Below, in pieces: positions 5,841 through 27,488 of a stretch of DNA of 32,676 bases. The stretch is from Thermodesulfovibrio sp. GTDB taxonomy: Bacteria; Nitrospirota; Thermodesulfovibrionia; Thermodesulfovibrionales; UBA6898. How positions within the stretch are numbered: position 1 is the stretch's first letter; every line of letters begins with the position of its first letter. The stretch covers positions 85,103 through 117,778 of the forward strand of contig PNOC01000003.1 of assembly GCA_013824615.1 (NCBI GenBank), written 5' to 3'. The position numbers and the translations under genes are program-made. Under the pieces are notes generated by a model, which was not told the origin of the DNA, made no database searches, and saw only the letters and a program-made list of their open reading frames with translations.

Positions 5841-5885
5841 AGCTCCCCGCCTAAATTAGGAGGGGTGGCCGCAGGCCGGGGTGGT
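5841..5885. repeat. GC-rich palindromic repeat, right-arm orientation
   Basis: Contains AGCTCCCCGCCTAAATTAGG then AGGGGTGGCCGCAGGCCGGGGTGGT. Two hairpins can form: CCCC-CCTAA/TTAGG-GGGG and GGCC-GCA-GGCC. It is the reverse complement of the arms at 6523, 7755 and 8587. It directly follows the pilX stop. Confidence 0.85.
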
Positions 5886-5965
5886 GTGAGTTTGGGGTTT
5901 TTAAGGCGGTGGTATTGGAAGCAGAATTGACAGGACAAGCCACACCCTCCCTGAGGGATACTCGA

Positions 5966-6063
5966 AGACAAACCACCCCGGCGTTCCGCCACCCCTCCTT
6001 AACCAAGGAGGGGAGTAGTTGGTTGGTCTGGAATTTTGTTATGAAAACGCCGGGGTGGTAGGA
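5966..6063. repeat. Composite repeat A: left arm, spacer, truncated right arm
   Basis: The left arm (5966-6017) reads GAAGACAAACCACCCCGG, GGCG-TTC-CGCC and CCCCTCCTT-AACC-AAGGAGGGG. The spacer carries GTTGGTCTGGAATTTTG. The right arm is cut short and begins in the hairpin loop as AACGCCGGGGTGGTAGG. It sits directly upstream of the DUF559 gene and precedes that gene's Shine-Dalgarno sequence. A small palindrome TCCCTGAGGGA at 5948-5958 precedes the left arm, as related palindromes do at other copies. Confidence 0.8.
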
Positions 6064-6087
6064 GTGAGTTTTTTTCAGGGGAATCAG

Positions 6088-6450
6088 ATGACCGATATAA
6101 TCCACAATATACCGAATCTAAAAAACAACAGAAAAACACTCAGAAATAATCTTACACCCGCTGAGGCCAAATTGTGGCCGCTACTGAAGGACAGTCGACT
6201 TGACGGAAGAAAGTTCAGAAGACAGCATAGTGTTGGCCCTTACGTCCTTGATTTTTACTGCCCCTCTGAAAAACTCTGCATCGAACTGGATGGGGCTGCT
6301 CATTTTACACATGCGGGGTCTGAATATGATGAAGCCAGGACAGCATACCTGCAGGCCCATAATATTCGCGTGATTCGTTTTGAAAATGCGGATATTTTTA
6401 AAAATACAGAGGGAGTGCTACAGGTAATTAGAAGAAATTTCAAAGTCTGA
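6088..6450 (+). CDS. DUF559 family endonuclease-like protein (Vsr-like fold)
   Basis: 120 residues. ATG at 6088 is preferred over 6019 because AGGGG lies 6 bases upstream and the protein then starts just before the family region. The sequence follows the DUF559 pattern: NLTPAEAKLWPLLKDSRLDG, then KFRRQHSVGPYVLDFYC with the Asp of a PD-(D/E)xK site, then CIELDG with the Glu and a following DG, and finally IRVIRFENADIF and EGVLQVIRR. The family is related to very-short-patch-repair and restriction endonucleases; its cellular role is not established. The gene stands alone between composite palindromic repeats, and its TGA stop lies in a repeat fragment (TGACAAACCACC). By eye it is AT-richer than its neighbours, which suggests transfer. 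All core residues appear intact, so it may be active. Confidence 0.88.
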   Translation: MTDIIHNIPNLKNNRKTLRNNLTPAEAKLWPLLKDSRLDGRKFRRQHSVGPYVLDFYCPSEKLCIELDGAAHFTHAGSEYDEARTAYLQAHNIRVIRFENADIFKNTEGVLQVIRRNFKV

Positions 6451-6515
6451 CAAACCACCTCCTCACTGTGTGGATCCTGTTAGTTCAGGCAAACCACCCC
6501 GGCCTGCGGCCACCC
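6448..6515. repeat. Fragments of the palindromic repeat (outer ends only)
   Basis: Two partial left-arm ends: TGACAAACCACCTCC starting at the DUF559 stop, and CAAACCACCCCGG with GGCC-TGC-GGCC and CACCC at 6490-6515. Both lack the second hairpin (CTCCTT/AAGGAG). They look like degenerate or truncated insertions. Confidence 0.7.
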
Positions 6516-6522
6516 TAGTTCA

Positions 6523-6660
6523 GACAAACCACCCCGGCCTGCGGCCACCCCTCCTTAGCCAAGGAGGGGAGTTAAAAAAACTGAATGCGTGCGTTTAGCA
6601 GATCCGGGGTTTCGTGCAGGCATGAAGCTCCCCGCCTAAATAACGCCCCCAGGCTGCGGT
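6523..6660. repeat. Composite repeat B: left arm, spacer, decayed right arm
   Basis: The left arm GACAAACCACCCCGG, GGCC-TGC-GGCC, CCCCTCCTT-AGCC-AAGGAGGGG, GTTAA ends at about 6575. The spacer includes TTTAGCAGATCCGG and ends in CATGAAGCTCC like copies C and D. The right arm keeps GCTCCCCGCCTAAATAACG, then decays (CCCCCAGGCTGCGG). It fills the gap between DUF559 and the lipoprotein gene. Confidence 0.75.
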
Positions 6661-6747
6661 GTTTTGTCTTAGATGGTCAATACATAGACAACGTTCTGCC
6701 TGCCATTATATAATTTCATGTAAGACAAGACTGTCCAGGAGGCCGCA

Positions 6748-7680
6748 ATGAAAAAAAATATATTCCTCTTATTATTTCTGACAATCGTATTGTCCGCCTG
6801 TTCGTCCGAAAAAGCCCCGCCGCCGCTGGTGATTCCCGGACAGGAGATGTCGTCCGGACAGGTTCAGCCGGGACCGGGAACAGCTGCCCCAGGTCAAGTC
6901 TCCTCCGGTGAGTATGAGCTCATAGTCAACCCTGCGGATGCGGATACAAATGCAACATTGTACCTGGGGGCCAGGGGATTCAACCCGGTGGATGCAAAGA
7001 TAGAGTGGCTGGTCAACAGTGCTGTCCCGTATCCCGGAGAGACTTCCGTGATGCTGAAGGCCGGCATTGCGAAGAAGGGGTATACTGTCCAGGCAAAAGC
7101 AACCCTCAAAGACAAAGAGATAAAATCAAATATGATCAAGATAAAGAATGCGCCTCCGGTCATCAGCCGCGTGAAGCTTATGCCCGAGGTCTTCAAGTCA
7201 GGTGATCTGCTGAGTGTTGAGGTCAGCGGGACCGACCCTGACGGTGATACGGTGACCTTTCTCTATGAGTGGACAAAGAACGGACAGCCGGCGGGGAATG
7301 GGAGAGTCATGGACTCGCAGGTAAAAAAAGGTGATAAAGTCCTGGTCAAGATAACCCCGTTTGACGGGGAAGTCAACGGTCGCGCAGGCACCCTGAACAA
7401 CGAGATACGCAATATGCCTCCGATGCTTATCGATAACAGGGACTATAAGTTCGACGGCAGAGTGCTCACCCATCAGGCCAGGGCAACAGACCCTGACGGC
7501 GATCCTATTACCTATTCGCTGAAGAATGCACCGCAGGGCATGGCGATTAATTCTTCAAGCGGCCTCACCACCTGGACCGTACCGCCGGGACTGAAAGACA
7601 AAGGATCGTATACCGTGGTCGCCAAAGACCCCAACGGCGGAGAATCCTCCCAACTCTTCAACTACGACCTGGGGCAGTGA
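6748..7680 (+). CDS. Lipoprotein with Ig/cadherin-like repeats
   Basis: 310 residues. AGGAGG lies 6 bases before the ATG. The N-terminus is a lipoprotein signal: MKKN, a hydrophobic stretch, then the LSAC lipobox with lipidated Cys18. A Pro/Gly/Gln-rich linker (residues 23-53) follows. At least two beta-sandwich-type modules carry the DPDGD motif (near residues 163 and 248), typical of PKD/cadherin-like and He_PIG folds, with calcium-compatible acidic runs. The last module (ITYSL, PQGMAI, TTWTVP, GSYTVVAKDPNGG) is a recognisable putative-Ig domain. It is probably an envelope-anchored adhesive or structural protein. Repeats flank it on both sides. No enzyme motif is visible and the exact function is unknown. 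Confidence 0.75.
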   Translation: MKKNIFLLLFLTIVLSACSSEKAPPPLVIPGQEMSSGQVQPGPGTAAPGQVSSGEYELIVNPADADTNATLYLGARGFNPVDAKIEWLVNSAVPYPGETSVMLKAGIAKKGYTVQAKATLKDKEIKSNMIKIKNAPPVISRVKLMPEVFKSGDLLSVEVSGTDPDGDTVTFLYEWTKNGQPAGNGRVMDSQVKKGDKVLVKITPFDGEVNGRAGTLNNEIRNMPPMLIDNRDYKFDGRVLTHQARATDPDGDPITYSLKNAPQGMAINSSSGLTTWTVPPGLKDKGSYTVVAKDPNGGESSQLFNYDLGQ

Positions 7681-7754
7681 GGCATTGACCGGATAAGTCC
7701 TCCTCCCTGCGGGATACCCGGGAGACGAACCGCCCCGGTTCGGGATATTCTGAA

Positions 7755-7894
7755 GACAAACCACCCCGGCCTGCGGCCACCCCTCCTTAACTAAGGAGGG
7801 GAGTTAACTGCAGCAGCCAGTTGGTCTGGGTTTGTGTCCAGGGTATGGAGCTCCCCGCCTGGATCAGGAGGGGTGGCCGCAGGCCGGGGTGGTA
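7755..7894. repeat. Composite repeat C: complete left arm, spacer and right arm
   Basis: The best-preserved copy. The left arm 7755-7806 has GGCC-TGC-GGCC and CCCCTCCTTA-AC-TAAGGAGGGG. The spacer (about 40 bases) contains GCAGCAGCCAGTTGGTCTGG and TTTGTGTCCAGGGTATGGAG. The right arm 7848-7894 has CTCCCCGCCTGGATCAGG and AGGGGTGGCCGCAGGCCGG. A palindromic CTCCCTGCGGGA lies at 7703-7714. The two arms form a long imperfect inverted repeat ending just upstream of the TPR gene's ribosome binding site. Confidence 0.85.
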
Positions 7895-7926
7895 GATATT
7901 TGATTTTTTGAATAAAGGAGAAAACC

Positions 7927-8523
7927 ATGAAAATCCTGTGTATTTGTCTTTTGCTTCTAAGTCTGAGCATACCGGCTATGGCAGCAGAGCCTACTGCTGA
8001 TCAGCTCTTTGATACGGGCAACGGGTATTTTAACGAAGAGCAGTATAGCAGGGCGATTGAGGCTTATTCAAAGGCGGTCGACATGGCTCCCGGCTTTGCC
8101 AATGCCCATCACAACCGGGGGCTGGCCTATTACAAAACCGGCAAATATGACCTTGCGATAGCGGATTACACTGCCGCGATAAAGAACGGCTACACAGCGG
8201 TGAGCATCTATAACAGCCGCGGACTGGCCTATCTGAAGACAGGTCAATATAACTATGCGGCTGAAGACTATACCAGGGTCATTGAACAGGCCCCCAGGAG
8301 TGCAGAGGCCTATTATAACCGCGCCATAGCCTATGCCAACAACAGCCAGTATGATGAGGCCATTGCCGACTATGACAAGGTCCTTGCACTGAAGCCGGGC
8401 GACATGAATGCCTATGCGTCGCGCGGAGTCGCCTTTGTCAGAAAAGCGATTGTTGATTTCAAGCGGGCCTGTGATATGGGCAGCAAACCCGCCTGCGAAA
8501 ACCTGAAGCAGGTGGAGAAATAA
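7927..8523 (+). CDS. Secreted TPR-repeat protein
   Basis: 198 residues, start supported by AAAGGAG 7 bases upstream. A cleavable signal peptide (MKILCICLLLLSLSIPAMA, cleaved near residue 19-21) is followed by tandem 34-residue tetratricopeptide repeats from about residue 27 (YFNEEQYSRAIEAYSKAV, YYKTGKYDLAIADYTAAI, YLKTGQYNYAAEDYTRVI, YANNSQYDEAIADYDKVL). The last repeat (GVAFVRKAIVDFKRAC) seems to lack the few residues normally between the helices (a GDYD-like segment), followed by a Sel1-like end DMGSKPACENLK. It is likely a periplasmic protein-interaction scaffold; the partner is unknown. Composite repeats lie on both sides. Confidence 0.82.
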   Translation: MKILCICLLLLSLSIPAMAAEPTADQLFDTGNGYFNEEQYSRAIEAYSKAVDMAPGFANAHHNRGLAYYKTGKYDLAIADYTAAIKNGYTAVSIYNSRGLAYLKTGQYNYAAEDYTRVIEQAPRSAEAYYNRAIAYANNSQYDEAIADYDKVLALKPGDMNAYASRGVAFVRKAIVDFKRACDMGSKPACENLKQVEK

Positions 8524-8585
8524 GACAAACCACCATCTCCCTGCGGGAGATTCTGAAGACAAACCACCCCGGCCTGCGGTCACCT
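8523..8585. repeat. Fragmentary palindromic repeats after the TPR gene
   Basis: AGACAAACCACCATCTCCCTGCGGGAG (with a CTCCCTGCGGGAG palindrome) starts at the TPR stop. It is followed by GAAGACAAACCACCCCGG with GGCC-TGC-GGTC and CACC. Only the outer half of the left arm is present, as at 6490-6515. Confidence 0.7.
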
Positions 8586-8586
8586 G

Positions 8587-8730
8587 ATGACAAACCACCC
8601 CGGCGTTCCGCCACCCCTCCTTAACCAAGGAGGGGAGTTAAATGCAGCAGTTGGTTATTCTGGATTTTGTGTCTATGGTATGAAGCTCCCCGCCTAATTT
8701 AGGAGGGGTGGCCGCAGGCCGGGGTGGTAG
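8587..8730. repeat. Composite repeat D: complete left arm, spacer and right arm
   Basis: The left arm ATGACAAACCACCCCGG, GGCG-TTC-CGCC, CCCCTCCTT-AACC-AAGGAGGGG, GTTAA is followed by a spacer (TGCAGCAGTTGG, TTCTGGATTTTGTGTC, GGTATGAAG). The right arm is CTCCCCGCCTAATTTAGG, AGGGGTGGCCGCAGGCCGG. Spacer and arm order match copy C. It lies between convergent genes, just before the terminator at 8755. Confidence 0.85.
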
Positions 8731-8810: not shown

Positions 8811-9602
8811 CTATTTATGGCAGTTCTGGCATTCGGTCGAAGCGAAGGCTGCCTCTCCGTTATGACACTTTCCGCAGAATTTGCCCTGATACAGGTCGTC
8901 CATCTTCATGCCTGAACTGCCCTTCTTGTACTTGAAGATCGTCGTGTGGCAGTTGACGCATTCGAATATCCCGGTATGGACCTGGTGGCTGAATACTGCC
9001 GGAGACATATCTTTGGAAGGATAGGAAAAGTCCTTTCCAAGAGCTGACATGTTATGGCATTTTGCGCAATCCTTCGAGGCGAAGGCAGCCTTGCCGTTAT
9101 GACATTTCCCGCAGTTGTTGCCCTTGTACATCTCTTCCATGGTGATCCTGTTGCCGCCCTTTTTCATCTGGAAGACAGCCGGGTGGCATTCTCCGCAGCC
9201 GGATCTCTTTGCATGTTTTTGATGTGAGAAGTTTACCGGCATGCCGGAACTGTTGAGCGTAATGGTAGTCATATTGTGACAATTGTTGCAGGTCTCCCGG
9301 TTGAGGGACATCTCTTTGTGCGGTTTCATAAGGTGGCACTGATTGCAATGCACCCCGAACCCCCTATGTTTTGTATGCGAGAATCTACCGCTCTCTTCGG
9401 CTGCAAATTTTTCATAGGCATGGCATTTGAAACAGGGCAGCCCGGAGTCCTTGAATGAAGTAATTATCGGAGCTTCCTTGCCTTCTGTTGCAGGTTTATG
9501 TTCTGTCTTCCACTTGCAGGAGGCCAATGATGCTATTAAAGACACGGCCAGGACCATTTTCAGGGCCCCTTTCATGACTCGTACTGCTGTCATCCGTCCC
9601 AT
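8811..9602 (-). CDS. Nonaheme c-type cytochrome lipoprotein (cytochrome c7-like repeats)
   Basis: 263 residues with nine CXXCH sites in order CFKCH, CNQCH, CNNCH, CGECH, CGKCH, CAKCH, CVNCH, CGKCH, CQNCH. A lipobox LASC with Cys29 predicts membrane anchoring. The second and third thirds are a clear internal duplication: FSHQ-H..CxxCH, a KKG turn, then CGKCHNG-AAFAS and CxxCH. This matches the triheme c7-type domain, so the protein reads as three c7-like modules. Many extra His residues can act as distal ligands. It is the last gene of an operon with a cytochrome b and a heptaheme cytochrome. A role in carrying electrons from the inner membrane across the periplasm is inferred; acceptor unknown. 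The start could instead be Met4 or Met10. Confidence 0.88.
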   Translation of the reverse strand: MGRMTAVRVMKGALKMVLAVSLIASLASCKWKTEHKPATEGKEAPIITSFKDSGLPCFKCHAYEKFAAEESGRFSHTKHRGFGVHCNQCHLMKPHKEMSLNRETCNNCHNMTTITLNSSGMPVNFSHQKHAKRSGCGECHPAVFQMKKGGNRITMEEMYKGNNCGKCHNGKAAFASKDCAKCHNMSALGKDFSYPSKDMSPAVFSHQVHTGIFECVNCHTTIFKYKKGSSGMKMDDLYQGKFCGKCHNGEAAFASTECQNCHK

Positions 9603-17885: not shown

Positions 17886-17945
17886 GTCATGCCTGTAGTC
17901 ACAACTTTAGGGTTCAAAAAAATTATCATAAGAAGGAGGATTTTG

Positions 17946-19175
17946 ATGAAGAAGTATTCTACGCCGTTGATCGATGAGCTGGAAAAAGGTCCTTGGCCGA
18001 GCTTCGTCACTGAGATGAAGAAGGCAGCAAAGACCAACGAGATGTCCAATGATGCAGTCGGACATCTTGAAAAATGCTATGCCACCAAGGTTGGATACTG
18101 GAAGCATGGCGGTATCGTTGGTGTTCTTGGCTATGGTGGTGGTGTTATCGGGCGGTACTCTGAACTTGGTGATGAGTTCCCTGGAGTAGCACATTTCCAT
18201 ACCGTAAGAATCAACCAGCCGAGCGGGTTCTACTATACCAGTGCGGCCATGAAGGAAATCTGCGATATATGGGACAAGTACGGAAGCGGTTTGACGAACG
18301 TCCACGGTTCCACCGGTGACCTCGTTCTGCTCGGCACAAAGACTGATGCTCTCGAAAATATCTTCGCTGAATACTCCTCCAGAGGCTGGGACCTTGGCGG
18401 TTCCGGTTCAGCACTCAGGACCCCGAGCTGCTGCCTTGGGCCTTCACGCTGCGAGTGGTCGAACTACGATACGCTTGACCTCTGCTACGCACTGACCCAG
18501 GAGTTCCAGGACGAGATTCACCGTCCGATGTTCTCCTACAAGTTCAAGATCAAGATGTCAGGCTGCGCCTGCGACTGTGTTGCGTCGATTGCGCGTGCCG
18601 ACATGTCGATCATCGGGACCTGGAAGGGCGATATCAGGATTGATCAGGCTGAAGTTGCAAACTATGCAAAGAAAGGCATGGACATCAACGCCGAGATCAT
18701 TGGCATGTGCCCGACACAGTGCATGAGCTACGATGGCAAAGAGATCAAGATCAACAATGCTGAGTGCAACCGCTGCATGCACTGCATCACCAAGATGACC
18801 AAGGCCCTCAGGCCGGGTACCGAGCGCGGAGCAACCATCTGCATCGGCAGTAAGGCCCCGATCGTTGTCGGCTCACTCCTGTCATGGGTTATCGTGCCGT
18901 TCATCAAGGTCGAGGAGCCGTACACTGAAGTGAAGGATCTGATCAGAAAGATATGGGAATGGTGGGATGACAATGCCAAGCCGAGAGAGAGAATCGGTGA
19001 AGTCATCGAGATGAAGGGCATGCGCTCGTTCCTCGAGGGCATCGGGCAGGAGCCAATCCCTCAGCAGATCAAGGAGCCGAGGAAGGATCCGTTCATGTTC
19101 TATACAGAAGAGGACATGGTTGGCTTCAAGGCAAAGGAAGCCGAAGAAAAGAAGACTGGCAAGTATAAATTCTAA
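17946..19175 (+). CDS. dsrA: Dissimilatory (bi)sulfite reductase alpha subunit
   Basis: 409 residues. ATG at 17946 has AGGAGG 6-7 bases upstream; the longer frame from 17889 has none. Siroheme-[4Fe-4S] binding motifs are C163-x5-C169 (CLGPSRC) and C207-x3-C211 (CACDC). The inserted ferredoxin domain has C255/C259 and C274-x2-C277-x2-C280 (CNRCMHC). Together with DsrB it forms the alpha2beta2 enzyme that reduces sulfite in the cytoplasm, forming a trisulfide on DsrC. Presence of dsrD downstream and absence of dsrEFH/dsrL indicate the reductive type. dsrB follows after 31 bases. All ligand residues appear intact. Confidence 0.98.
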   Translation: MKKYSTPLIDELEKGPWPSFVTEMKKAAKTNEMSNDAVGHLEKCYATKVGYWKHGGIVGVLGYGGGVIGRYSELGDEFPGVAHFHTVRINQPSGFYYTSAAMKEICDIWDKYGSGLTNVHGSTGDLVLLGTKTDALENIFAEYSSRGWDLGGSGSALRTPSCCLGPSRCEWSNYDTLDLCYALTQEFQDEIHRPMFSYKFKIKMSGCACDCVASIARADMSIIGTWKGDIRIDQAEVANYAKKGMDINAEIIGMCPTQCMSYDGKEIKINNAECNRCMHCITKMTKALRPGTERGATICIGSKAPIVVGSLLSWVIVPFIKVEEPYTEVKDLIRKIWEWWDDNAKPRERIGEVIEMKGMRSFLEGIGQEPIPQQIKEPRKDPFMFYTEEDMVGFKAKEAEEKKTGKYKF

Positions 19176-19206
19176 ATAATAAATTAATTAAGGAGGATAT
19201 GATAGT

Positions 19207-20277
19207 ATGGCAATACCACAGAGAAAAACAGATATAGGCCCGCCTAAATATGATCAGTTTCTGCCGCCGGCCATCAAGAAGAACTACGGCAAGTGGAAAT
19301 ATCATGAAGTCATTACGCCGGGCACGATGGTGCATGTCGGCGAGAGCGGCGATAAACTCTGGACCGTCAGAGTTGCATCTCCGCGGCTTCTTTCGACTGC
19401 AACAATCCGTGAACATTGCGACATCGCAGAAAAGTTTTGTGATGGTTTCTTCCGCTATACGACCAGAAACAACGTCGAGTTCATGGTTGCCGACGAGAGC
19501 AAGCTTGAGCCTCTGAAGAAAGAACTTACCGACCGCGGCTTTAAGATGGGCGGTATCGGCAACGCTATTTCGAACGTTGTTCATACCCAGGGCTGGGTCC
19601 ATTGCCACAGCGCCTGCACCGACGCCTCTGGCCTGGTGAAGGCGATGATGGATGAGCTTATGCCGTATTTCGAGTCAAAGCCGCTTCCGAACAAGGTGCG
19701 TCTGGCAGTGGCCTGCTGCGTTAATATGTGCGGTGCGGTTCATTGCTCCGACATCGCTGTTGTTGCTGTTCACACCAAGGTCCCGGAGATCAAACACGAA
19801 CTCTTCAAGAACATGTGCGAACTCCCGACCGTTATCGGCTCCTGCCCGACCCGCGCTATCAGCCCGGATCCGGCAAACAAGAGCGTTAAGATCAATGCCG
19901 AGAAGTGCATGTACTGCGGTAACTGCTTCACGGTCTGCCCTCCTATCAGCATCAAGGATGCCGATAGAGATGGTGTTGCAATCCTCGTCGGCGGCAAGGT
20001 CAACAGCCTGCGGTCGAACCCCAAGTTCTCGAAGCTCGTTATTCCGTACATTTCGAACGAGCCGCCGAGATGGCCGAAGGCCGTTGCTGCCATCAAGCAC
20101 ATTGTTGATGTGTATGCAGCGAATGCACGGAAGCATGAGCGGGTTGGCGAGTGGATCGACCGTATCGGCTGGGAGAGATTCTTCTCTCTGACCGGTATCG
20201 ACTTTACCTTCCAGTCGATCGATGACTTCACCTTCATGAGAGACACCATGAGGACAGCTTCGACCTTTAAATGGTAA
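19207..20277 (+). CDS. dsrB: Dissimilatory (bi)sulfite reductase beta subunit
   Basis: 356 residues, AGGAGG upstream. The ligand Cys set of the siroheme-coupled cluster is C133 (WVHC), C170, C171 and C175 (ACCVNMC), with the spacing known in DsrB. The ferredoxin domain has C234-x2-C237-x2-C240-x3-C244 (CMYCGNCFTVCPP). DsrB carries the catalytically competent siroheme. The HTQGWVHC and TDASGLVKAMMDEL blocks are diagnostic. A clear hairpin follows the stop (20293-20318), then dsrD. Confidence 0.98.
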   Translation: MAIPQRKTDIGPPKYDQFLPPAIKKNYGKWKYHEVITPGTMVHVGESGDKLWTVRVASPRLLSTATIREHCDIAEKFCDGFFRYTTRNNVEFMVADESKLEPLKKELTDRGFKMGGIGNAISNVVHTQGWVHCHSACTDASGLVKAMMDELMPYFESKPLPNKVRLAVACCVNMCGAVHCSDIAVVAVHTKVPEIKHELFKNMCELPTVIGSCPTRAISPDPANKSVKINAEKCMYCGNCFTVCPPISIKDADRDGVAILVGGKVNSLRSNPKFSKLVIPYISNEPPRWPKAVAAIKHIVDVYAANARKHERVGEWIDRIGWERFFSLTGIDFTFQSIDDFTFMRDTMRTASTFKW

Positions 20278-20292
20278 TCTAAGTAAATATAC

Positions 20293-20318
20293 AGGCAGTC
20301 CCGCTTGCGGGACTGCCT
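20293..20318 (+). terminator. Terminator or attenuator between dsrB and dsrD
   Basis: AGGCAGTCCCGC / GCGGGACTGCCT, 11-12 bp with a minimal loop, followed by ATTTATTAATCC, a weak U-tract. It probably trims or attenuates the dsrAB message, giving less dsrD than dsrAB. It could also be an mRNA 3'-stabilising hairpin. Confidence 0.7.
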
Positions 20319-20361
20319 ATTTATTAATCCTCAATACCTTTATCACGGGGGTGAGTTGCAT

Positions 20362-20610
20362 ATGGAGACAGCAGAACTTCAGGACAAAATTTTTGCCTTC
20401 TGTGAAGCAGCAAAGGGCAAGAAGAAGCTGAAAGAGAAGGACATCATCAAGGGCGTCAGCGCCGAGTTGAGCCTTGAGGCCGATGTTGTCAAGAAGGCCA
20501 TGAGAGGCATGATCGATGTCGGCAGGCTCATGTATTCTTACGGCGGCGGGGCAAGCTCTGTCGAGATTCCCAGTGAGGAATACCTCAGGGAAAAGGGCAT
20601 GATTCCCTAG
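20362..20610 (+). CDS. dsrD: DsrD, stimulator of DsrAB
   Basis: 82 residues from ATG at 20362, with GGGGGTGA upstream; the longer frame adds residues not found in DsrD. Winged-helix sequence: KIFAFCEAAKGKKKLKEKDIIKG, then VVKKAMRGMIDVGRLMYSYGGG and a C-terminal EIPSEEYLREKGMIP. In characterised reductive systems DsrD binds DsrAB and increases sulfite reduction rather than binding DNA. It is a marker of the reductive pathway. A perfect 21-bp terminator follows. Confidence 0.93.
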   Translation: METAELQDKIFAFCEAAKGKKKLKEKDIIKGVSAELSLEADVVKKAMRGMIDVGRLMYSYGGGASSVEIPSEEYLREKGMIP

Positions 20611-20625
20611 CTGTAGTCTGCGATG

Positions 20626-20670
20626 GTTTAAAAAAAGAGGGGGCGCGCAGCGCCCCCTCTTTTTTTAAAC
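20626..20670. terminator. Strong bidirectional terminator after dsrD
   Basis: Perfect 21-bp stem: GTTTAAAAAAAGAGGGGGCGC pairs with its complement at 20650-20670, 3-base loop GCA, with seven A and seven T bases giving a U-run on either strand. It closes the dsrAB-D unit and separates it from dsrN. Confidence 0.95.
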
Positions 20671-20715
20671 AAATTTCATAATCATTCAGTCCGTATTTTC
20701 TTCATTGCCTGTCGG

Positions 20716-20721
20716 CTATAA
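20716..20721 (+). promoter_or_regulatory. -10 element of dsrN, probable leaderless start
   Basis: A consensus TATAAT ends 7 bases before the second of two closely spaced ATG codons (20723, 20729), and no Shine-Dalgarno sequence is present. The predicted start point (about 20728) nearly coincides with the ATG at 20729. The -35 region is weak. Confidence 0.5.
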
Positions 20722-20728
20722 TATGCAA

Positions 20729-22180
20729 ATGCAAAAAAGATATCCCAGAATCGTCATCGCAGGACTCAGGGGCGGCTCGGGCAAGACAACGCTTTCTCTT
20801 GGCCTGATAGCCTCACTTGCCGGCAGGGGAAGAAAGATTGTGCCGTTCAAAAAAGGGCCTGACTACATTGATGCCGGGTGGCTTGCGTCCGCTGCCGGGC
20901 GGCAGTGCTATAACCTCGACCCGTTTCTGATCGGCAGCAGGAAAATTCTCGACTCGTTCACGGGGCATGCCGGGGGTGCAGACCTGGCGGTCATTGAAGG
21001 CAACCGGGGGCTGTATGACGGTATGGACGCCGCCGGCACCTACAGCACCGCTGAACTGGCCAAGATGCTTGGTGCCCCGGTTATTCTGATCATGGACTGC
21101 ACCAAGGCCACCAGGACCGCCGCTGCCATGGTTTACGGCATGCTGAAGTTCGACCGGAGGGTAGACATCCGGGGGGTCGTGCTGAACCAGATAGCCGGCA
21201 AGCGGCATGAGGCGGTAATCAGGGAAGCGGTAGAGAAGTACTGCGGCATTCCGGTTTTAGGGGCCCTGCCGAAGCTCAGGACAGGGCTGCTGTCCGAGCG
21301 GCATATGGGACTGACGCCGTTTCAGGAGCATGGGGACGTGAAGGCCGCTATCAGCGAAGTGGGGGAAATTATTGCGCGGTATGTTGATATTGACCGAATA
21401 TACCGGATAGCCCGGGATGCCGGGCCGATAAAGACAGCAGTCCAGGAGTCAGGGGGCAAGTCAAGGGATAAAGCGCTTCAGAATAAGGTCACCATCGGCA
21501 TTGTCCGTGATGCGGCTTTCCAGTTCTACTATCCTGAAAATTTTGAGGAGCTGGAGCGGCACGGTGCCCGTCTCATCGAGATCAGTGCGCTGACGGAGAA
21601 AAAATTGCCGGAGATTGATGCTTTGTATATCGGCGGCGGGTTTCCGGAGACGAATGCGATCGGCCTGGCGAAAAACAGGGCTTTCAGACAGTGTCTGAAA
21701 AAAGAGATTGAGAAGGGGCTGCCGGTCTACGCCGAATGCGGAGGGCTTATGTATCTTGGCCGGACACTGACCCTGGCGGGGAAGCAGTATCCGATGGCCG
21801 GCATCCTGCCCCTCGATTTTGAGATGGGAAAAAAGCCTGCCGCCCATGGGTACACGGTTGTCAAAATCACGGCACAGAATCTTTTTTACCGCCGGGGAAC
21901 CGTCCTCAGGGGACATGAGTTCCACTACTCACGACTGGCCGGAAGTCTTGAAAACAGAGTAATTGACCCCGGGATCCATTTTGCCTTTTCTCTGCAGCGT
22001 GGAGAAGGGATCCTCGGGAAGAAAGACGGGATCTGCTATAAGAATGTTCTTGCCACCTATACGCATCTGCATGCGTATGGATCACCCCAATGGGCAGCCG
22101 GCATGCTCAGGGCTGCACTGTCTTACAGAAAGGAAAAAGAAAAACGTGTCACGACGCGAAGAAGTCATACAACTGCTTGA
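20729..22180 (+). CDS. dsrN: DsrN, siroheme amidase (cobyrinate a,c-diamide synthase family)
   Basis: 483 residues from ATG 20729; ATG 20723 and TTG 20705 are possible alternatives. The N-terminal CbiA-type ATPase has the P-loop GGSGKTT (residues 15-21) and FKKGPDYIDAGWL. The C-terminal class I glutamine amidotransferase domain has nucleophile Cys337 in YAECGGLMYL and a HEFHYS block. In dsr loci this protein amidates siroheme to siroamide for DsrAB. The same family makes cobyrinate diamide (CbiA), so a cobalamin role is not excluded, but no cob genes are adjacent and the position between dsrD and dsrC supports DsrN. It overlaps the next gene by 35 bases. Confidence 0.9.
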   Translation: MQKRYPRIVIAGLRGGSGKTTLSLGLIASLAGRGRKIVPFKKGPDYIDAGWLASAAGRQCYNLDPFLIGSRKILDSFTGHAGGADLAVIEGNRGLYDGMDAAGTYSTAELAKMLGAPVILIMDCTKATRTAAAMVYGMLKFDRRVDIRGVVLNQIAGKRHEAVIREAVEKYCGIPVLGALPKLRTGLLSERHMGLTPFQEHGDVKAAISEVGEIIARYVDIDRIYRIARDAGPIKTAVQESGGKSRDKALQNKVTIGIVRDAAFQFYYPENFEELERHGARLIEISALTEKKLPEIDALYIGGGFPETNAIGLAKNRAFRQCLKKEIEKGLPVYAECGGLMYLGRTLTLAGKQYPMAGILPLDFEMGKKPAAHGYTVVKITAQNLFYRRGTVLRGHEFHYSRLAGSLENRVIDPGIHFAFSLQRGEGILGKKDGICYKNVLATYTHLHAYGSPQWAAGMLRAALSYRKEKEKRVTTRRSHTTA

Positions 22181-23183
22181 AGATAATAATATCGGGGGTC
22201 TTATCGCCTATGCAAAAAAAGACCCGGGTCTGTTCAGAACGCTGATTTCCCTTGCCTATGACAAGCAGACAGTGCTCGGCTGGAGGGCTATTGAGGCCAT
22301 GGGCGTGGCTGTGGGGGAGACTGCGAAGGCCAATCCTGAAAAGGCCAGAAACCTGGCCCAGCGGCTCCTCTGGATGCTGAGGGAAGAGTCGGGGAATAAC
22401 CCCTGGAGTGCCCCGGACATGCTCGGAGAGATTGTCCGGAACTGCCCTGAGGATTTTGCGGATTTTGCTCCGATTATTGCCTCGTTTCACGATGAAGAGA
22501 TTCTGCATCAGGGAGTGCTGCGGGCGATGGTGCGGATCGGCGAGGTGCGTCCGGAACTTGTCAGGGACCAGGCGGAGCTCGCACGCACCTACCTTTGCCA
22601 CCGTGATCCGCTTGTGCGCGCCTATGCGATTCAGCTGGCGGGCATCCTCTGCCGGGATGACCTGAGGGAAGCGCTCGCTCTTCTTCTTCAGGATGAGACG
22701 GAAGTCCTCCTGTATACTGATGGTGAGTTCGTTCCCCGTCTGATACGGACCCTGGCTGCAGTGGCCATCGGGCAGAAGGCGGCCCCTGAAAAAAAGGGCT
22801 GGATGAAACATCCCGAGAAAAAAGGCACGGGACTCCGCTGCCCGTTCTGCGAAGAGCCCGTCGGGGCGCTCCAGGAAATAACAGCCCGTTTCGGGAACAC
22901 CTTCACCGGGGGCAAGTGTTCATGCGGTGCGGTATTTGTGTATGACGGCTCGGGGCATAATCTCGGTGACGCATATGTCGACGGTCTGGCCTATGCCTGC
23001 GATAACGATTTTGACAAGGCCTGGAGCCTTGTCCCGGAGGAGGATTATGAGATCCGTGAGTTATGCGCAGACACCAGGCGCAACAAGTTTCTGACGGCGC
23101 GCAGGGGCACTAAATGCACCTACCTGTTTATCCGGCTGACAGAGGGAACAAAGCCGGATAAAAGCCCGGATACTGGTCAATAA
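22146..23183 (+). CDS. HEAT-like repeat protein with C-terminal zinc-ribbon-like motif, dsr-associated
   Basis: 345 residues from GTG 22146; the long in-frame extension upstream lies inside dsrN. Residues 1-200 are helical, with HEAT/PBS-like repeats (TVLGWRAIEAMGVAV, GVLRAMVRIGEVRPELV, DPLVRAYAIQLAGIL). Residues 232-260 hold CPFC and CSC, a zinc-ribbon-like pair of knuckles, followed by an unrecognised domain (NLGDAYVDGLAYACDNDFDKAW). It resembles proteins annotated DVU0298-type in sulfate reducers, a tentative match from memory. Overlap with dsrN implies translational coupling. No catalytic motif is visible. A role as scaffold or regulator in siroheme or sulfite reductase assembly is inferred only from position. 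Confidence 0.75.
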   Translation: MSRREEVIQLLEDNNIGGLIAYAKKDPGLFRTLISLAYDKQTVLGWRAIEAMGVAVGETAKANPEKARNLAQRLLWMLREESGNNPWSAPDMLGEIVRNCPEDFADFAPIIASFHDEEILHQGVLRAMVRIGEVRPELVRDQAELARTYLCHRDPLVRAYAIQLAGILCRDDLREALALLLQDETEVLLYTDGEFVPRLIRTLAAVAIGQKAAPEKKGWMKHPEKKGTGLRCPFCEEPVGALQEITARFGNTFTGGKCSCGAVFVYDGSGHNLGDAYVDGLAYACDNDFDKAWSLVPEEDYEIRELCADTRRNKFLTARRGTKCTYLFIRLTEGTKPDKSPDTGQ

Positions 23184-23245
23184 GCTTTCATCATTAATGA
23201 ATAAGATTTATTTATTTGACCAAGTGCGTGCAGGTGTATTACCTT
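23179..23245 (+). promoter_or_regulatory. dsrC promoter region sharing the dsrA block
   Basis: The block aligns base for base without gaps to 17819-17885: AATAAG, ATCATT, TTTATTTGACCA (23211-23222), nine bases, AGGTGT (23232-23237). Promoter reading: TTGACC, 18-bp spacer, TACCTT. The leader to dsrC would be about 150 bases. The remainder of the 23184-23399 gap holds a short inverted repeat CGGGAATGACTCCCG. Confidence 0.6.
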
Positions 23246-23399
23246 TTATAGCTCATGTTGTAATCATAACTTGATGATTGTGGATGGGATAGGCTAGAAT
23301 ATGAGCCTAAAAATGAGGCAATATCCTATGTCTCTTAATACTGCCGGGAATGACTCCCGCACATTTTAATTACCTTATTACAGAAAGGGGGAAGTACAA

Positions 23400-23735
23400 A
23401 TGCCAACAATGGATTTTCAGGGAAAACAGATTGAGGTGGATGACGACGGTTATCTGCTGAACCTCGATGACTGGAACAAGGAGCTTGCAGAAGTTCTTGC
23501 CAAGCAGGACAGCATGGAACTGACCGAGGCCCACTGGGAAGTTATCAATTTTCTCAGGGACTACTACAAGCAGTACCAGATAGCTCCGATGATCAAGATC
23601 CTCGTTAAAGAGATCGGCAAGGCCATGGGTCCCGAGAAGGGGAACACCAAGTACCTGTACGAGCTGTATCCGGGCGGACCTGCAAAGCAGGCTTGCAAAT
23701 ATGCCGGGCTGCCGAAGCCTACGGGCTGCGTCTAA
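23400..23735 (+). CDS. dsrC: DsrC, sulfur-carrier protein
   Basis: 111 residues, GGGGG upstream of the ATG. The core TEAHWEVINFLRDYYKQYQIAPMIKILVK is diagnostic for DsrC/TusE. The flexible C-terminal arm has both redox Cys: Cys99 (QACKYAG) and the penultimate Cys110 (KPTGCV). This marks true DsrC rather than TusE. It accepts sulfite-derived sulfur from DsrAB as a trisulfide, then is reduced, most likely by DsrMKJOP encoded downstream. It has its own promoter and a terminator, as expected for a highly abundant protein. Confidence 0.98.
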   Translation: MPTMDFQGKQIEVDDDGYLLNLDDWNKELAEVLAKQDSMELTEAHWEVINFLRDYYKQYQIAPMIKILVKEIGKAMGPEKGNTKYLYELYPGGPAKQACKYAGLPKPTGCV

Positions 23736-23756
23736 ACATTTATTGTGTCTTCTCAT

Positions 23757-23792
23757 AACAGCGCCCCATACATCCTTGCATGGGGCGCTGTT
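23757..23792 (+). terminator. dsrC terminator
   Basis: 13-bp stem AACAGCGCCCCAT / ATGGGGCGCTGTT with a 10-base loop, ending in a short T-run (GTTTTC). It isolates the dsrC transcript from the downstream rsbRD-like/dsrMKJOP unit. Confidence 0.88.
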
Positions 23793-23909
23793 TTCAACTC
23801 CATCTGCCTGTTCCCTGCTTTGCTGACCAACGTGGCGCCTGATTTTGTCAAACTATCAGCAGGGCTGCAGGGGACCTTTCCCAAATCTTCAGGAGCGGCC
23901 CTTTAACGT

Positions 23910-24458
23910 ATGAGTCTTTCGACCCTCCTGTCCGACAAGAGGTCGCTTATCCTCGGCAGTTGGTGTGATGCGGTGATCTCGGGCTATCCGCATGATACTT
24001 CGAACTTCCTCCGTAAGAATGAAAACCGCTTTGCAAACCCCGTGGGTCACACCATCCAGGACAGTTTCGGACATATTCTCGACGCACTTCTGAACAATGC
24101 CGCGCCGGAGGTTTCGACTGTCTACCTGGACAATATCATCAGGATCAGGGCTGTCCAGGATTTCAGCCCATCCCAGGCAGTCTCCTTTATCTTTATTCTC
24201 AAAAAAGTGGTCAGGGATGTCCTGGCGCAGGAGAAGGCTGCGGTGCCTGACCCTGAAGAACTCTTTCTGTTCAACGAGCAGGTCGACGCCCTGGCCCTGA
24301 CCTCCTTCGAGATCTACATGCAGTGCCGCGAGAAACTCTATGATATCAAGGCGAATGAGATAAAGAACATGACGTACCGGTTATTGCAAAAGGCTCAGAA
24401 GATGGGACTCGACAGCAGTGATGCTGCAGACCCGTCAGCAGACATTGTGAACAAATAA
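23910..24458 (+). CDS. RsbRD N-terminal-domain-like protein upstream of dsrM
   Basis: 182 residues, all helical in appearance. It begins MSLSTLLSDKRSLILGSWCDAVISGYP, then HTIQDSFGHILDAL, IRAVQDFSPSQAVSFIFILKKVVRD and a C-terminal helix YMQCREKLYDIKANEIKNMTYRLLQKA. This matches the RsbR/RsbRD N-terminal sensory domain (non-heme globin-like fold) without a STAS domain. Such proteins often precede dsrMKJOP in sulfate reducers. The only Shine-Dalgarno-like sequence (AGGAG) is about 14 bases upstream. dsrM follows after 17 bases. A sensory or regulatory role is inferred; the ligand is unknown. Confidence 0.8.
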   Translation: MSLSTLLSDKRSLILGSWCDAVISGYPHDTSNFLRKNENRFANPVGHTIQDSFGHILDALLNNAAPEVSTVYLDNIIRIRAVQDFSPSQAVSFIFILKKVVRDVLAQEKAAVPDPEELFLFNEQVDALALTSFEIYMQCREKLYDIKANEIKNMTYRLLQKAQKMGLDSSDAADPSADIVNK

Positions 24459-24475
24459 CAGGAAGAGGTAACCAA

Positions 24476-25468
24476 ATGAAAATCGTGCTACCCTTAGTTG
24501 CAGTGATTATGCTTGTGGTGCTTGCCTTTGCCGGCGTCCAGGTAGCGGGCATGCAGTTCCTTTTCGGGGTCCTGATCCCGTATCTGGCGATTGCGTTTTT
24601 TATTGCGGGGTTTATCTACCGGGTGATCAAATGGGGCATGTCCCCGGTCCCGTTCTGTATCCCGACAACCGCCGGACAGATGAAGTCTTTCCCCTGGATA
24701 AAGCAGAATAAGCTCGACAACCCTTCCAGCACCATGGGGGTTGTCGGCAGAATGGCCCTGGAGGTCCTGGTCTTCCGGTCTCTTTTCCGGAATACGAAGA
24801 CCGAACTGCGCGAAGGTCCCCAGCTTTCTTACGGGTCCGAGAAGTTTCTCTGGATCGCGGGACTGGCCTTTCACTGGTCGTTCCTCATTATCTTTATCCG
24901 TCACTTCAGATTTTTTATGCTCGAAACCCCTTTTGTGATCCAGATGATCGAGGGCCTCGACAGCTTTCTCCAGATCGGAGCGCCGTTGCTCTACCTGACT
25001 GACGTTGTGCTGCTGGGTGCGGTGACCTTCCTGGTCTTCAGGCGGCTGGCTATGCCGCTGATCAAGTACATATCGCTGCCGGCCGACTACTTTCCGCTCT
25101 TTCTTATCCTGGGCATTGCTACATCCGGAATCCTGATGCGGTATTTCATGAAGGTCCATATCGTCGGGGTCAAGGAGATGGTGCTGGGGCTTGTCAGTTT
25201 CAACCCTGTCGTACCCGAAGGCATTGGCGTTATTTTCTACATTCACCTGTTTCTGGTGAGCACGCTGCTCGCTTATTTCCCGCTGAGCAAACTTATGCAT
25301 ATGGGCGGTGTTTTTATGAGCCCGACCCGAAACATGGCGAACAACAGCAGGGAAGTGCGGCATGTCAACCCGTGGAACTACCCGGTGCATGTCCATACCT
25401 ATGATGAGTATGAAGATGAATTCAGGGAAAAAATGAAAAAGGCCGGCCTGCCGGTCGAGAAGGAGTGA
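24476..25468 (+). CDS. dsrM: DsrM, membrane cytochrome b of the DsrMKJOP complex
   Basis: 330 residues, AGGAAGAGG before the ATG. About six membrane segments (LPLVAVIMLVVLAFAGV, FGVLIPYLAIAFFIAGFIY, WIAGLAFHWSFLIIFI, APLLYLTDVVLLGAVTFLV, FPLFLILGIATSGILM, VIFYIHLFLVSTLLAYF). The NarI-like heme b ligands are likely in FHWSFL, FIRHFRF, VHIVGV and YIHLF. It exchanges electrons with menaquinone and passes them to DsrK. The C-terminus NPWNYPVHVHTYDEYEDEFREKM is typical. The stop overlaps the Shine-Dalgarno region of dsrK. Confidence 0.96.
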   Translation: MKIVLPLVAVIMLVVLAFAGVQVAGMQFLFGVLIPYLAIAFFIAGFIYRVIKWGMSPVPFCIPTTAGQMKSFPWIKQNKLDNPSSTMGVVGRMALEVLVFRSLFRNTKTELREGPQLSYGSEKFLWIAGLAFHWSFLIIFIRHFRFFMLETPFVIQMIEGLDSFLQIGAPLLYLTDVVLLGAVTFLVFRRLAMPLIKYISLPADYFPLFLILGIATSGILMRYFMKVHIVGVKEMVLGLVSFNPVVPEGIGVIFYIHLFLVSTLLAYFPLSKLMHMGGVFMSPTRNMANNSREVRHVNPWNYPVHVHTYDEYEDEFREKMKKAGLPVEKE

Positions 25469-25470
25469 TC

Positions 25471-27087
25471 ATGGCAAAAGTTAATACTCCAAAACCAGCA
25501 GAACTGGCAGAAGCCTTAGAGTATACCACGCCGCAGACCGAGTGGATGGAGACGCCGGCAGTCATAAAGCCGGGGACCTTCTGCTGGGGCGCCAAGGGGA
25601 AAAACCTCGGCATTGTGGAATTCCCGAATGCACGGGACTGGAACCCCTCGGAAGAGGACTGGAAGCTCCCGGAGAACTGGCAGGAGATATTCTTCACCGG
25701 GATGAAAAACCTCCTCGACAAATATCGTTCTTTCAAAGTCTTTATGGATATCTGTGTCAGGTGCGGTGCCTGTGCCGACAAGTGTCACTTTTTCATCGGC
25801 TCGGGCGATCCCAAGAACATGCCGGTGTTGAGGGCCGAACTTCTCCGTTCCGTTTACCGGAACGACTTTACGCTGGCCGGTAAAATTCTCGGCAAGATAG
25901 CCGGCGCACGGCCGCTCACGGTCGATGTTCTCAAGGAACTCTGGTATTATTTCTATCAGTGCACCGAGTGCCGCCGCTGCTCGCTCTTCTGTCCCTACGG
26001 CATTGATACTGCCGAGATAACCATGATGGGCCGCGAGCTGACGAACCTGCTCGGGCTGAACACCGACTGGATATCGGGCCCGGTGGCCAACTGCTATATG
26101 AAGGGCAATCACCTTGGTCTCGAGCCGCATGCCATCATGAACAGTATCGAGGGCATGGTCGACGATATAGAGACGATTACGGGCATAAGAATCAATCCTT
26201 CCTTTAACCGCAAAGGGGCAGAAATATTGTTTGTTACTCCTTCGGGAGACCTTTTTGCTGATCCGGGAACATACACTGCCATGGGCTACATGATGCTGTT
26301 TCATGAGCTCGGGCTGGATTATACCTGGTCCACGTATGCATCGGAGGGAGGCAACTTCGGCTTCTTCAGCTCCAACGAGATGGCGAAGAGACTGAACTCC
26401 AAGATATATGCCGAGGCAAAACGCCTGGGGGTCAAATATATCATCGGCGGCGAATGCGGCCATATGTGGAGGGTTCTGACACAGTATATGGATACCTGGA
26501 ACGGGCCTGCGGACTTCATGGAAGTTCCGGTTTCCCCGATAACCGGCACGCGGTTCGAAAACTCGAAATCGACCAAGATGATTCATATCACCGAGTTCAC
26601 TGCCGACCTTATCAAGAACAATAAGCTGAAACTCGACCCGTCGCGGAACGATGATCTGGTCATCACCTATCACGATTCGTGCAATACCGCCCGGGGCATG
26701 GGCCTGATGGATGAGCCGCGGTATATTATCAATAACGTCTGCAATAACTTCCATGAGATGCCTGAAAATACGATCCGGGAGCAGACCTTCTGCTGCGGCA
26801 GCGGAACCGGACTGAACGCCAGTGAAAATATGGAGCTGAGGATGCGCGGCGGGCTTCCCCGGGCGAATGCAGTCAAATTCGTCAAGGAAAAACACGGCGT
26901 CAACATGCTGGCCAATATCTGTGCCATCGACCGCGCCACGCTGTCGGCTTCGATGGACTACTGGGTGCCCGGGGTCAAGGTGACCGGGGTGCATGAGCTT
27001 GTTGCCAATGCCCTGATCATGACAGGCGAGAAGGAACGGGAGACGAACCTGCGAGGGGACGCACTTCCCGGAAAGGAGGGCAACTGA
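25471..27087 (+). CDS. dsrK: DsrK, iron-sulfur catalytic subunit (HdrD-like)
   Basis: 538 residues from ATG 25471 with AGGAG 5 bases upstream; a GTG at 25465 lies in that site. Two [4Fe-4S] ferredoxin motifs: C95-x2-C98-x2-C101-x3-C105 and C164-x2-C167-x2-C170-x3-C174. CCG-type domains for the noncubane [4Fe-4S] site follow (GGECGHMWR, YHDSCNTARG, FCCGSGTG). DsrK resembles HdrD and is thought to reduce the DsrC trisulfide or disulfide on the cytoplasmic side. It pairs with DsrM. Confidence 0.97.
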   Translation: MAKVNTPKPAELAEALEYTTPQTEWMETPAVIKPGTFCWGAKGKNLGIVEFPNARDWNPSEEDWKLPENWQEIFFTGMKNLLDKYRSFKVFMDICVRCGACADKCHFFIGSGDPKNMPVLRAELLRSVYRNDFTLAGKILGKIAGARPLTVDVLKELWYYFYQCTECRRCSLFCPYGIDTAEITMMGRELTNLLGLNTDWISGPVANCYMKGNHLGLEPHAIMNSIEGMVDDIETITGIRINPSFNRKGAEILFVTPSGDLFADPGTYTAMGYMMLFHELGLDYTWSTYASEGGNFGFFSSNEMAKRLNSKIYAEAKRLGVKYIIGGECGHMWRVLTQYMDTWNGPADFMEVPVSPITGTRFENSKSTKMIHITEFTADLIKNNKLKLDPSRNDDLVITYHDSCNTARGMGLMDEPRYIINNVCNNFHEMPENTIREQTFCCGSGTGLNASENMELRMRGGLPRANAVKFVKEKHGVNMLANICAIDRATLSASMDYWVPGVKVTGVHELVANALIMTGEKERETNLRGDALPGKEGN

Positions 27088-27089
27088 TC

Positions 27090-27488
27090 ATGTATAACAG
27101 TGGAAAGATTATAGCGGGGCTGGTTGTTTTCCTGGCTTTTTTTGCCTTCCCTTTTTATTACAATCTGGGAAAGGCCAACGCGAGGCCTGAACCGAAGCTG
27201 AATACCCCGGTGATACAGCAGCTTGCAGAGAAGAAGTGTGTTGAATCCAGGGATTTTATGCGCTCGGAGCATATGCAGCTTCTCAATGACTGGCGTGATT
27301 CGGTCGTCCGCGACGGCAACAGGATCTATGTGAATGCCGAGGGCAAGAAGCATACCATCAGCCTTCAGAATACCTGCATGAACTGCCATTCGAACAAAAA
27401 AGAGTTTTGTGATTCCTGTCACAATTACATGGCTGTCAAACCCTACTGCTGGAGCTGCCATATTCAACCGAAGGAGGACAAGTCATGA
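27090..27488 (+). CDS. dsrJ: DsrJ, periplasmic triheme cytochrome c
   Basis: 132 residues, AAAGGAGG upstream. An N-terminal anchor helix (IIAGLVVFLAFFAFPFYY) is followed by three heme sites: CMNCH (96-100), CDSCH (107-111), CWSCH (120-124). Cys50 in KKCVESRDFMRSEHMQLL corresponds to the conserved Cys thought to be the unusual distal heme ligand in DsrJ. It faces the periplasm in the DsrMKJOP complex. ATGA overlap with dsrO. Confidence 0.96.
   Translation: MYNSGKIIAGLVVFLAFFAFPFYYNLGKANARPEPKLNTPVIQQLAEKKCVESRDFMRSEHMQLLNDWRDSVVRDGNRIYVNAEGKKHTISLQNTCMNCHSNKKEFCDSCHNYMAVKPYCWSCHIQPKEDKS

Follow-up and report, generated by a model that had tools for sequence, protein, structure and literature searches.

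Here we analyse a stretch of 32,676 nucleotides (hereafter, the window) from the genome of a Thermodesulfovibrio species (3.6 Mb in 96 contigs), in which a complete gene for a DUF559 protein, a predicted nuclease of the Vsr fold, lies among copies of a short palindromic repeat that we call the hairpin-tag unit. Our results suggest that DUF559 genes and the units surrounding them probably constitute one cognate mobile system, which resembles that of the repetitive extragenic palindromes (REPs) and would be driven by the Vsr-fold nuclease. They point to a widespread, apparently undescribed kind of small mobile element; no link between DUF559 and repeats was found in the literature searched, which left out preprints and most subscription papers.

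A unit is made of a hairpin, a linker and a tag, for instance CTCCCCTCCTTGGTTAAGGAGGGG (hairpin), TGGCCGCAGGCC (linker, itself a mini-hairpin) and GGGGTGGTT (tag). Ten tag-bearing units, seven complete and three truncated, lie within positions 5843-8729 of the window (Table 1), and they are present in all four gaps, namely, between pilX and the DUF559 gene, between this and a gene for a protein with immunoglobulin (Ig) domains, between the latter and a gene for a tetratricopeptide repeat (TPR) protein, and between the TPR and cytochrome genes. An earlier reading of this DNA, made from the sequence only, had likewise placed the palindrome in all four gaps, and had claimed that a complete DUF559 gene is flanked by copies, which is borne out by a Pfam match with an E value of 6.8e-32 and by units on both sides. 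Its further claim that transposases and integrases are absent agrees with our finding no such domain in the main open reading frames (ORFs) of the window. Complete composites, [<-tag][hairpin] ~47 bp [hairpin][tag->], occur in two gaps, with the hairpins inside and the tags outside. The words that the sequence-only reading picked out do recur in the spacer, but what it described as a left and a right arm is better understood as two inverted units, each with its own hairpin, linker and tag. With the composite spacer goes a 131-nt direct repeat, 79% identical. A 28-base core of the unit, allowing up to three mismatches, occurs nine times in the whole 3.6-Mb genome, seven of them in the window, and the same pattern written backwards occurs nowhere in it. 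Of the two distant copies, one (L003) has the arrangement [hairpin][tag->][<-tag][hairpin] with no gene in it, and the other (L009) is a composite. An Rfam search returned only a sub-threshold chance match.

Bracketing by inverted units is a general property of DUF559 genes. To score it, we took 250 bp on either side of the domain, reverse-complemented the downstream stretch and compared it with the upstream one, counting scores of at least 15. First, in a set of loci drawn from the phylum, 25 of 31 DUF559 loci were bracketed, against 0/28 for ParE, 0/60 for shifted pseudo-genes in the same loci and 1/20 for Y1 transposases, the single bracketed Y1 gene having a different repeat. Second, in a set of named genomes from proteobacterial classes, Nitrospirota, Omnitrophota, Chloroflexota, Spirochaetota and others, which shares a few loci with the former and excludes one masked locus (L128), 57 of 74 stand-alone DUF559 loci were bracketed, versus 6 of 507 shifted positions, and the arms typically lay 25-30 bp from the domain. 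The general layout is [hairpin][tag->] DUF559 gene [<-tag][hairpin]; as in insertion sequences, the loci have terminal inverted repeats, here units whose tags face the gene. The DUF559 gene of Neisseria gonorrhoeae likewise has palindromic repeats on both sides. As a separate observation, about one in ten DUF559 elements (e.g. L123, L204, L208, L297 and L041) is enclosed by an additional inverted repeat further out, TTCTTTCTCATTTTGAGTGGGTAAA ... TTTACCCACTTGAAATGAGAAAGAA, and looks as though nested within a second palindromic element; GTGGGTA was found upstream of 11/135 loci and 3/388 controls, and TACCCAC downstream of 8/135 and 1/388, respectively.

The type of repeat is specific to the DUF559 subfamily. 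Across 102 loci, protein similarity and unit similarity were correlated (Mantel test, Spearman rho 0.48), also when only distant proteins were compared (rho 0.44), with none of 500 permutations as high in either case; the DNA further out (310-440 bp) showed no significant correlation with protein similarity (rho 0.005). Within the family of the window species (27 genomes), the window-type unit is present in nine genomes, each of them one of the 17 that have a DUF559 match, and in none of the ten without. In related genomes with several DUF559 paralogs, window-type units flank the five genes that have 72-76% identity to the window protein, and paralogs at most 52% identical to it carry other types. 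The only other DUF559 gene of the source genome, C8 (L002, 1340-1990), downstream of which the start of the gene recurs in truncated form, has a different palindromic unit on both sides, suggesting that every DUF559 gene comes with a repeat of its own, and two genes from other genomes, 70-87% identical to the C8 protein, have C8-like units. This pairing was overlooked by the sequence-only reading, as were the mirror relation and the Escherichia coli K-12 system described below.

Tag and hairpin are related by mirror symmetry: the tag repeats the purine arm in reverse order, with A read as A or T. Examples of arm and tag are AAGGAGGGG and GGGGTGGTT (window), GGGGGAGGG and GGGTGGGGG, and AAAGAGGGG and GGGGAGATT. 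Among 169 hairpins, 146 had asymmetric arms, and for these the mirror beat the direct repeat 111 to 4, and a tag that simply repeats the arm was rejected. Perfect mirrors numbered 105 and perfect direct repeats nine (p 8e-19), and the linker was exactly 3 nt long in 100 of 117 perfect cases. Opposite an arm A, the tag had A 180 times, T 151, C 11 and G 6; opposite an arm G, it had G in 1005 of 1186 instances. The antiparallel third-strand code in DNA places G on G:C and A or T on A:T. Judged by its sequence, the tag obeys this code, as expected of the mirror repeat of an H-DNA-like triplex. Watson-Crick pairing of the tag with the pyrimidine arm of the other end was also tried and rejected, since it was found at 4 of 74 ends, compared with a perfect own-arm mirror at 70 of 74, all of these ends having been preselected for a mirror score of at least 0.8.

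The mirror rule could instead stem from a G-quadruplex (GGG-N-GGG-N3-GGG-N-GGG), a motif that fits 70 of 123 mirror-obeying units. However, the remaining 53 obey the rule without any such motif, for example the arm AAAGAGGGG with its tag GGGGAGATT; direct repeats fit only four of the units that lack it; and the window-type unit does not have four runs of three G. Since A-rich arms, from which G-quadruplexes are mostly excluded, fit the mirror in 34 of 46 cases and the direct repeat in one, a G-quadruplex was rejected as the sole cause of the rule, and we consider it an unlikely source of it, if one that deserves some weight. The window-type linker is a GGCC-GNA-GGCC mini-hairpin, and four kinds of double change preserve the pairing of its stem. 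Triloops of the GNA type have unusual stability in DNA, and such a linker would fit a single-stranded DNA substrate. Independently of the tag, one hairpin class (window positions 5843-5865, 7851-7873 and 8686-8708) retains a G.A mismatch in its stem, CCCCGCCT/AGGAGGGG, across genera; G.A mismatches that retain the purine arm occur in other unit types too.

The short palindromes are dispersed singly and in inverted pairs, and their abundance follows DUF559. At least five copies of a generic hairpin-tag pattern were present in 22 of 40 genomes with a stand-alone DUF559 gene versus 7 of 69 without (p = 6e-4, permuting labels within taxonomic families only). The sequence-only reading was to be given up if DUF559 genes were unassociated with the repeats across genomes, or if the repeats were equally abundant without them; these data, together with bracketing across phyla, speak for the association on both counts, and nuclease and repeats do belong to a single system with a REP-like layout.

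Given a layout like that of REPs and bacterial interspersed mosaic elements (BIMEs), the units might be REPs moved by Y1 (HUH) tyrosine transposases, with DUF559 as a passenger. Some terminal inverted repeats (TIRs) of the TIRYT elements, which combine Y1 transposases with long TIRs, have GGGGWSAS (PMC3733652), which would fit GGGGTGAG-type tags, a likeness possibly due to convergence or to shared repeats, the enzyme being different. Moreover, units and BIMEs of palindromic units (PU-BIMEs) share a spot in different strains at two E. coli intergenic sites. Yet Y1 genes of the same phylum are bracketed only in the one case mentioned above, the hairpin foot has no GTAG, and three unit-rich genomes have no Y1 match, namely, G026 (575 pattern matches and 13 DUF559 matches), G071 (91 pattern matches) and G057 (59). 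With Y1 loci not bracketed and several unit-rich genomes lacking Y1, this enzyme was rejected as mobiliser, and the passenger scenario retains almost no probability. What the DUF559 system shares with REP/BIME and their REP-associated tyrosine transposases (RAYT, or TnpA-REP) are dispersed short palindromes in inverted pairs, a nuclease gene between repeats of its own type, pairing specific to the subfamily and a likely single-strand substrate. It differs in having a Vsr-fold enzyme rather than Y1/HUH, hairpin feet that read CTCCCC / GGGGTGG without GTAG, and a hairpin followed by a mirror (triplex-code) tag. Thus, it works like REP/RAYT while lacking the enzyme and the GTAG that define that family. 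A survey of REPs has reported CGTC repeats without a dedicated transposase (PMC3733652).

The Pfam match of the window protein covers positions 3-106 of the 109 of the model, and the AlphaFold model (pLDDT 84) resembles the crystal structure of N. gonorrhoeae DUF559 protein NGO0050 (PDB 3HRL; Z 16.5), the homing endonuclease I-Bth0305I (PDB 3R3P; Z 12.1, 22% identity) and Vsr (PDB 1VSR and 1CW0; Z 10.3 and 10.1); the Vsr Pfam family itself did not match the protein. Residues E26, D55, E66, D68, H72 and D81, invariant across 43 sequences, are compatible with a possible active site. In several loci (L012, L014, L016 and L023) DUF559 ORFs often extend into the repeat that follows, whose translation adds artificial C-terminal tails (PSPQPSPVKGEG or HPPLAPPIKGG, for example).

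Two other roles of this protein have to be weighed. In the first, homing occurs without transposition: the nuclease would cut sites that contain units and its gene would be copied by recombination between pre-existing units, which spread otherwise and serve only as landing or homology sites. I-Bth0305I as the closest characterised fold (also matched by sequence, E 8e-4), PHROG matches to homing endonucleases, genes placed between units with inward-facing tags, and units outnumbering genes all agree with it. The Vsr-fold (EDxHD) homing endonucleases share with DUF559 the fold of the catalytic domain and a small, selfish nuclease; the DUF559 gene, however, is free-standing, intergenic and bracketed by repeats, with no intron, intein or interrupted target gene involved. 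A unit type specific to each nuclease subfamily is most easily explained if the units, too, were made by the nuclease, and window-type units are missing from family genomes without DUF559, so that we regard homing alone as rather improbable. In the second, the DUF559 nuclease would serve in repair, restriction or regulation, and the hairpins beside it would be common terminators or structural DNA that has been retained there. In Caulobacter cells that lack a cytosine methylase, the DUF559 protein VsrA damages DNA (PMC12907096), and there are weak matches to defence nucleases. Against this, control genes have no such flanks, and the units are on both sides, inverted, dispersed genome-wide and co-varying with the protein, which leaves this role very little likelihood. 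Vsr mismatch endonuclease shares the fold (Z about 10) and differs in that the DUF559 gene of the window carries repeats; no linked cytosine methylase was seen in the window. A profile analysis had put E. coli YcjD beside Vsr (PMC1189080). YcjD, VsrA and NGO0050 all belong to the DUF559 family, and searchable papers do not describe any of the three in connection with repeats.

Regarding the history of the locus, species of the same genus keep the pilX-Ig-TPR order, none with window-type units there: G105, G128 and G129 have neither nuclease nor units at the pilX-Ig junction, and G127 has an unrelated composite exactly at it. Since these species lack DUF559 and window-type units, the nuclease and its units are most simply seen as a recent addition in the window species, at an insertion site not resolved to a single base by this comparison.

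The system is also found in E. coli K-12, where ycjD (b1289) is a DUF559 gene between fabI and sapF with several hairpin-tag units downstream. The median E. coli genome has the ycjD unit in 19 places. The E. coli BoxC repeat is similar, with 22 copies and a 50-base model (PMC2267715) versus 20-21 places and a 49-base unit in K-12 derivatives, as far as copy number and length, the only features compared, can tell; the papers searched do not link BoxC to a nuclease. Presence or absence of ycjD has been tied to eefRABCD replacement at the same locus (PMC12817139), and ycjD is therefore not a simple insertion. Nor was a clean empty site seen elsewhere in E. coli: at nrdA-nrdB (L233) and the flgK site, some strains have the composite and others PU-BIMEs in the same place, that is, BIME replacement, and the tldD-aaeR unit is fixed. 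The loci at which hairpin-tag units and PU-BIMEs share one spot between strains are L232 (640-885) and L233.

Based on the favoured explanation, a cognate mobile system, the basic element would be the bracketed gene. Its non-autonomous derivatives would comprise units standing alone, units paired in inverted orientation, and [hp][tag->][<-tag][hp] copies (hp, hairpin) that have no gene. Within one DNA strand, the unit may fold so that a hairpin of about 9 bp, formed by a pyrimidine arm, a loop and a purine arm, is followed by a short linker and a tag, the last lying along the purine arm as the third strand of an antiparallel triplex. The Vsr-fold nuclease, with a fold as in I-Bth0305I, would recognise its own unit type and cut it, probably on a single-stranded or extruded unit at replication. 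Movement or copying could then proceed via strand transfer or via homing-type repair between units, two routes that our data do not tell apart. We infer, with the sequence-only reading, that the DUF559 protein may nick or move the repeats.

Several points weigh against this explanation. Triplex formation is read from sequence and the catalytic activity of DUF559 is predicted. The co-variation of units and proteins could partly reflect shared descent of linked DNA, though the flanks further out show none. Insertions with clean junctions were not caught and no target-site duplication was identified. Three genomes have many units (22 in G014, 44 in G008 and 48 in G033) and no detected DUF559; therefore, units persist or spread without the gene, or the gene was lost. 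The contrast among 59 sampled E. coli chromosomes, a median of 21 places with ycjD versus 4 without, agrees with unit counts that follow DUF559 but tracks phylogroup and is not independent evidence, and the presence of the tldD-aaeR unit in nearly all E. coli genomes indicates that unit positions can be old.

Table 1. Genes and hairpin-tag units around the DUF559 gene (window coordinates).
Feature	Position	Strand	Remarks
pilX	ends 5838		
Unit 1	5843..5886	+	hairpin CTCCCCGCCT..AGGAGGGG, mini-hairpin linker TGGCCGCAGGCC, tag GGGGTGGT aimed at nuclease gene
Unit 2	5970..6015	-	complete; linker TGGCGGAACGCC (compensated linker stem)
Unit 3	6049..6061	+	truncated: tag GCCGGGGTGGT, no hairpin; immediately upstream of nuclease gene, aimed at it
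DUF559 nuclease gene	6088..6450	+	120 aa; Vsr-fold, PD-(D/E)XK superfamily (Pfam PF04480, AlphaFold model); ORF open from TTG at 6019, likely start ATG at 6088
Unit 4	6491..6515	-	truncated (tag and linker only); immediately downstream of nuclease gene
Unit 5	6526..6571	-	complete; tag aimed back at nuclease gene
Remnant of further unit	6619..6640	+	hairpin left half, GAAGCTCCCCGCCTAA; repeat family D5
Ig-domain protein gene	6748-7680		
Unit 6	7758..7803	-	complete; left half of Ig-TPR gap composite
Unit 7	7851..7894	+	complete; right half of Ig-TPR gap composite (47-bp spacer, 7804-7850)
TPR protein gene	7927-8523		
Unit 8	8561..8584	-	truncated (tag and linker)
Unit 9	8592..8637	-	complete; left half of TPR-cytochrome gap composite
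Unit 10	8686..8729	+	complete; right half of TPR-cytochrome gap composite (48-bp spacer, 8638-8685)
Cytochrome gene	8811-9602	-	

Elsewhere the window contains a pilus operon, two multihaem cytochromes, lipid A genes and dissimilatory sulfite reductase genes. Positions 17889-29471 form a sulfur-metabolism cluster with two NIR_SIR proteins, a cobyrinate amidotransferase, NrfD and Fe-S subunits.

Many palindromic repeats are orphans for which no mobiliser is known, and a very widespread repeat grammar is now tied to one nuclease family of unknown role, with a cognate DNA assigned to each DUF559 subfamily and a mirror (triplex) code reported at the element ends. It is tempting to speculate, at somewhat less than even confidence, that these elements, present across phyla and in E. 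coli K-12, form a separate mobile class, with a stand-alone Vsr-fold nuclease that moves units recognised as intramolecular hairpin-triplexes; such a class would explain a large share of orphan GC-rich palindromic repeats, possibly including BoxC. Since E. coli K-12 has ycjD and its units, a laboratory strain allows a direct test of what DUF559 does and of where the repeats come from.

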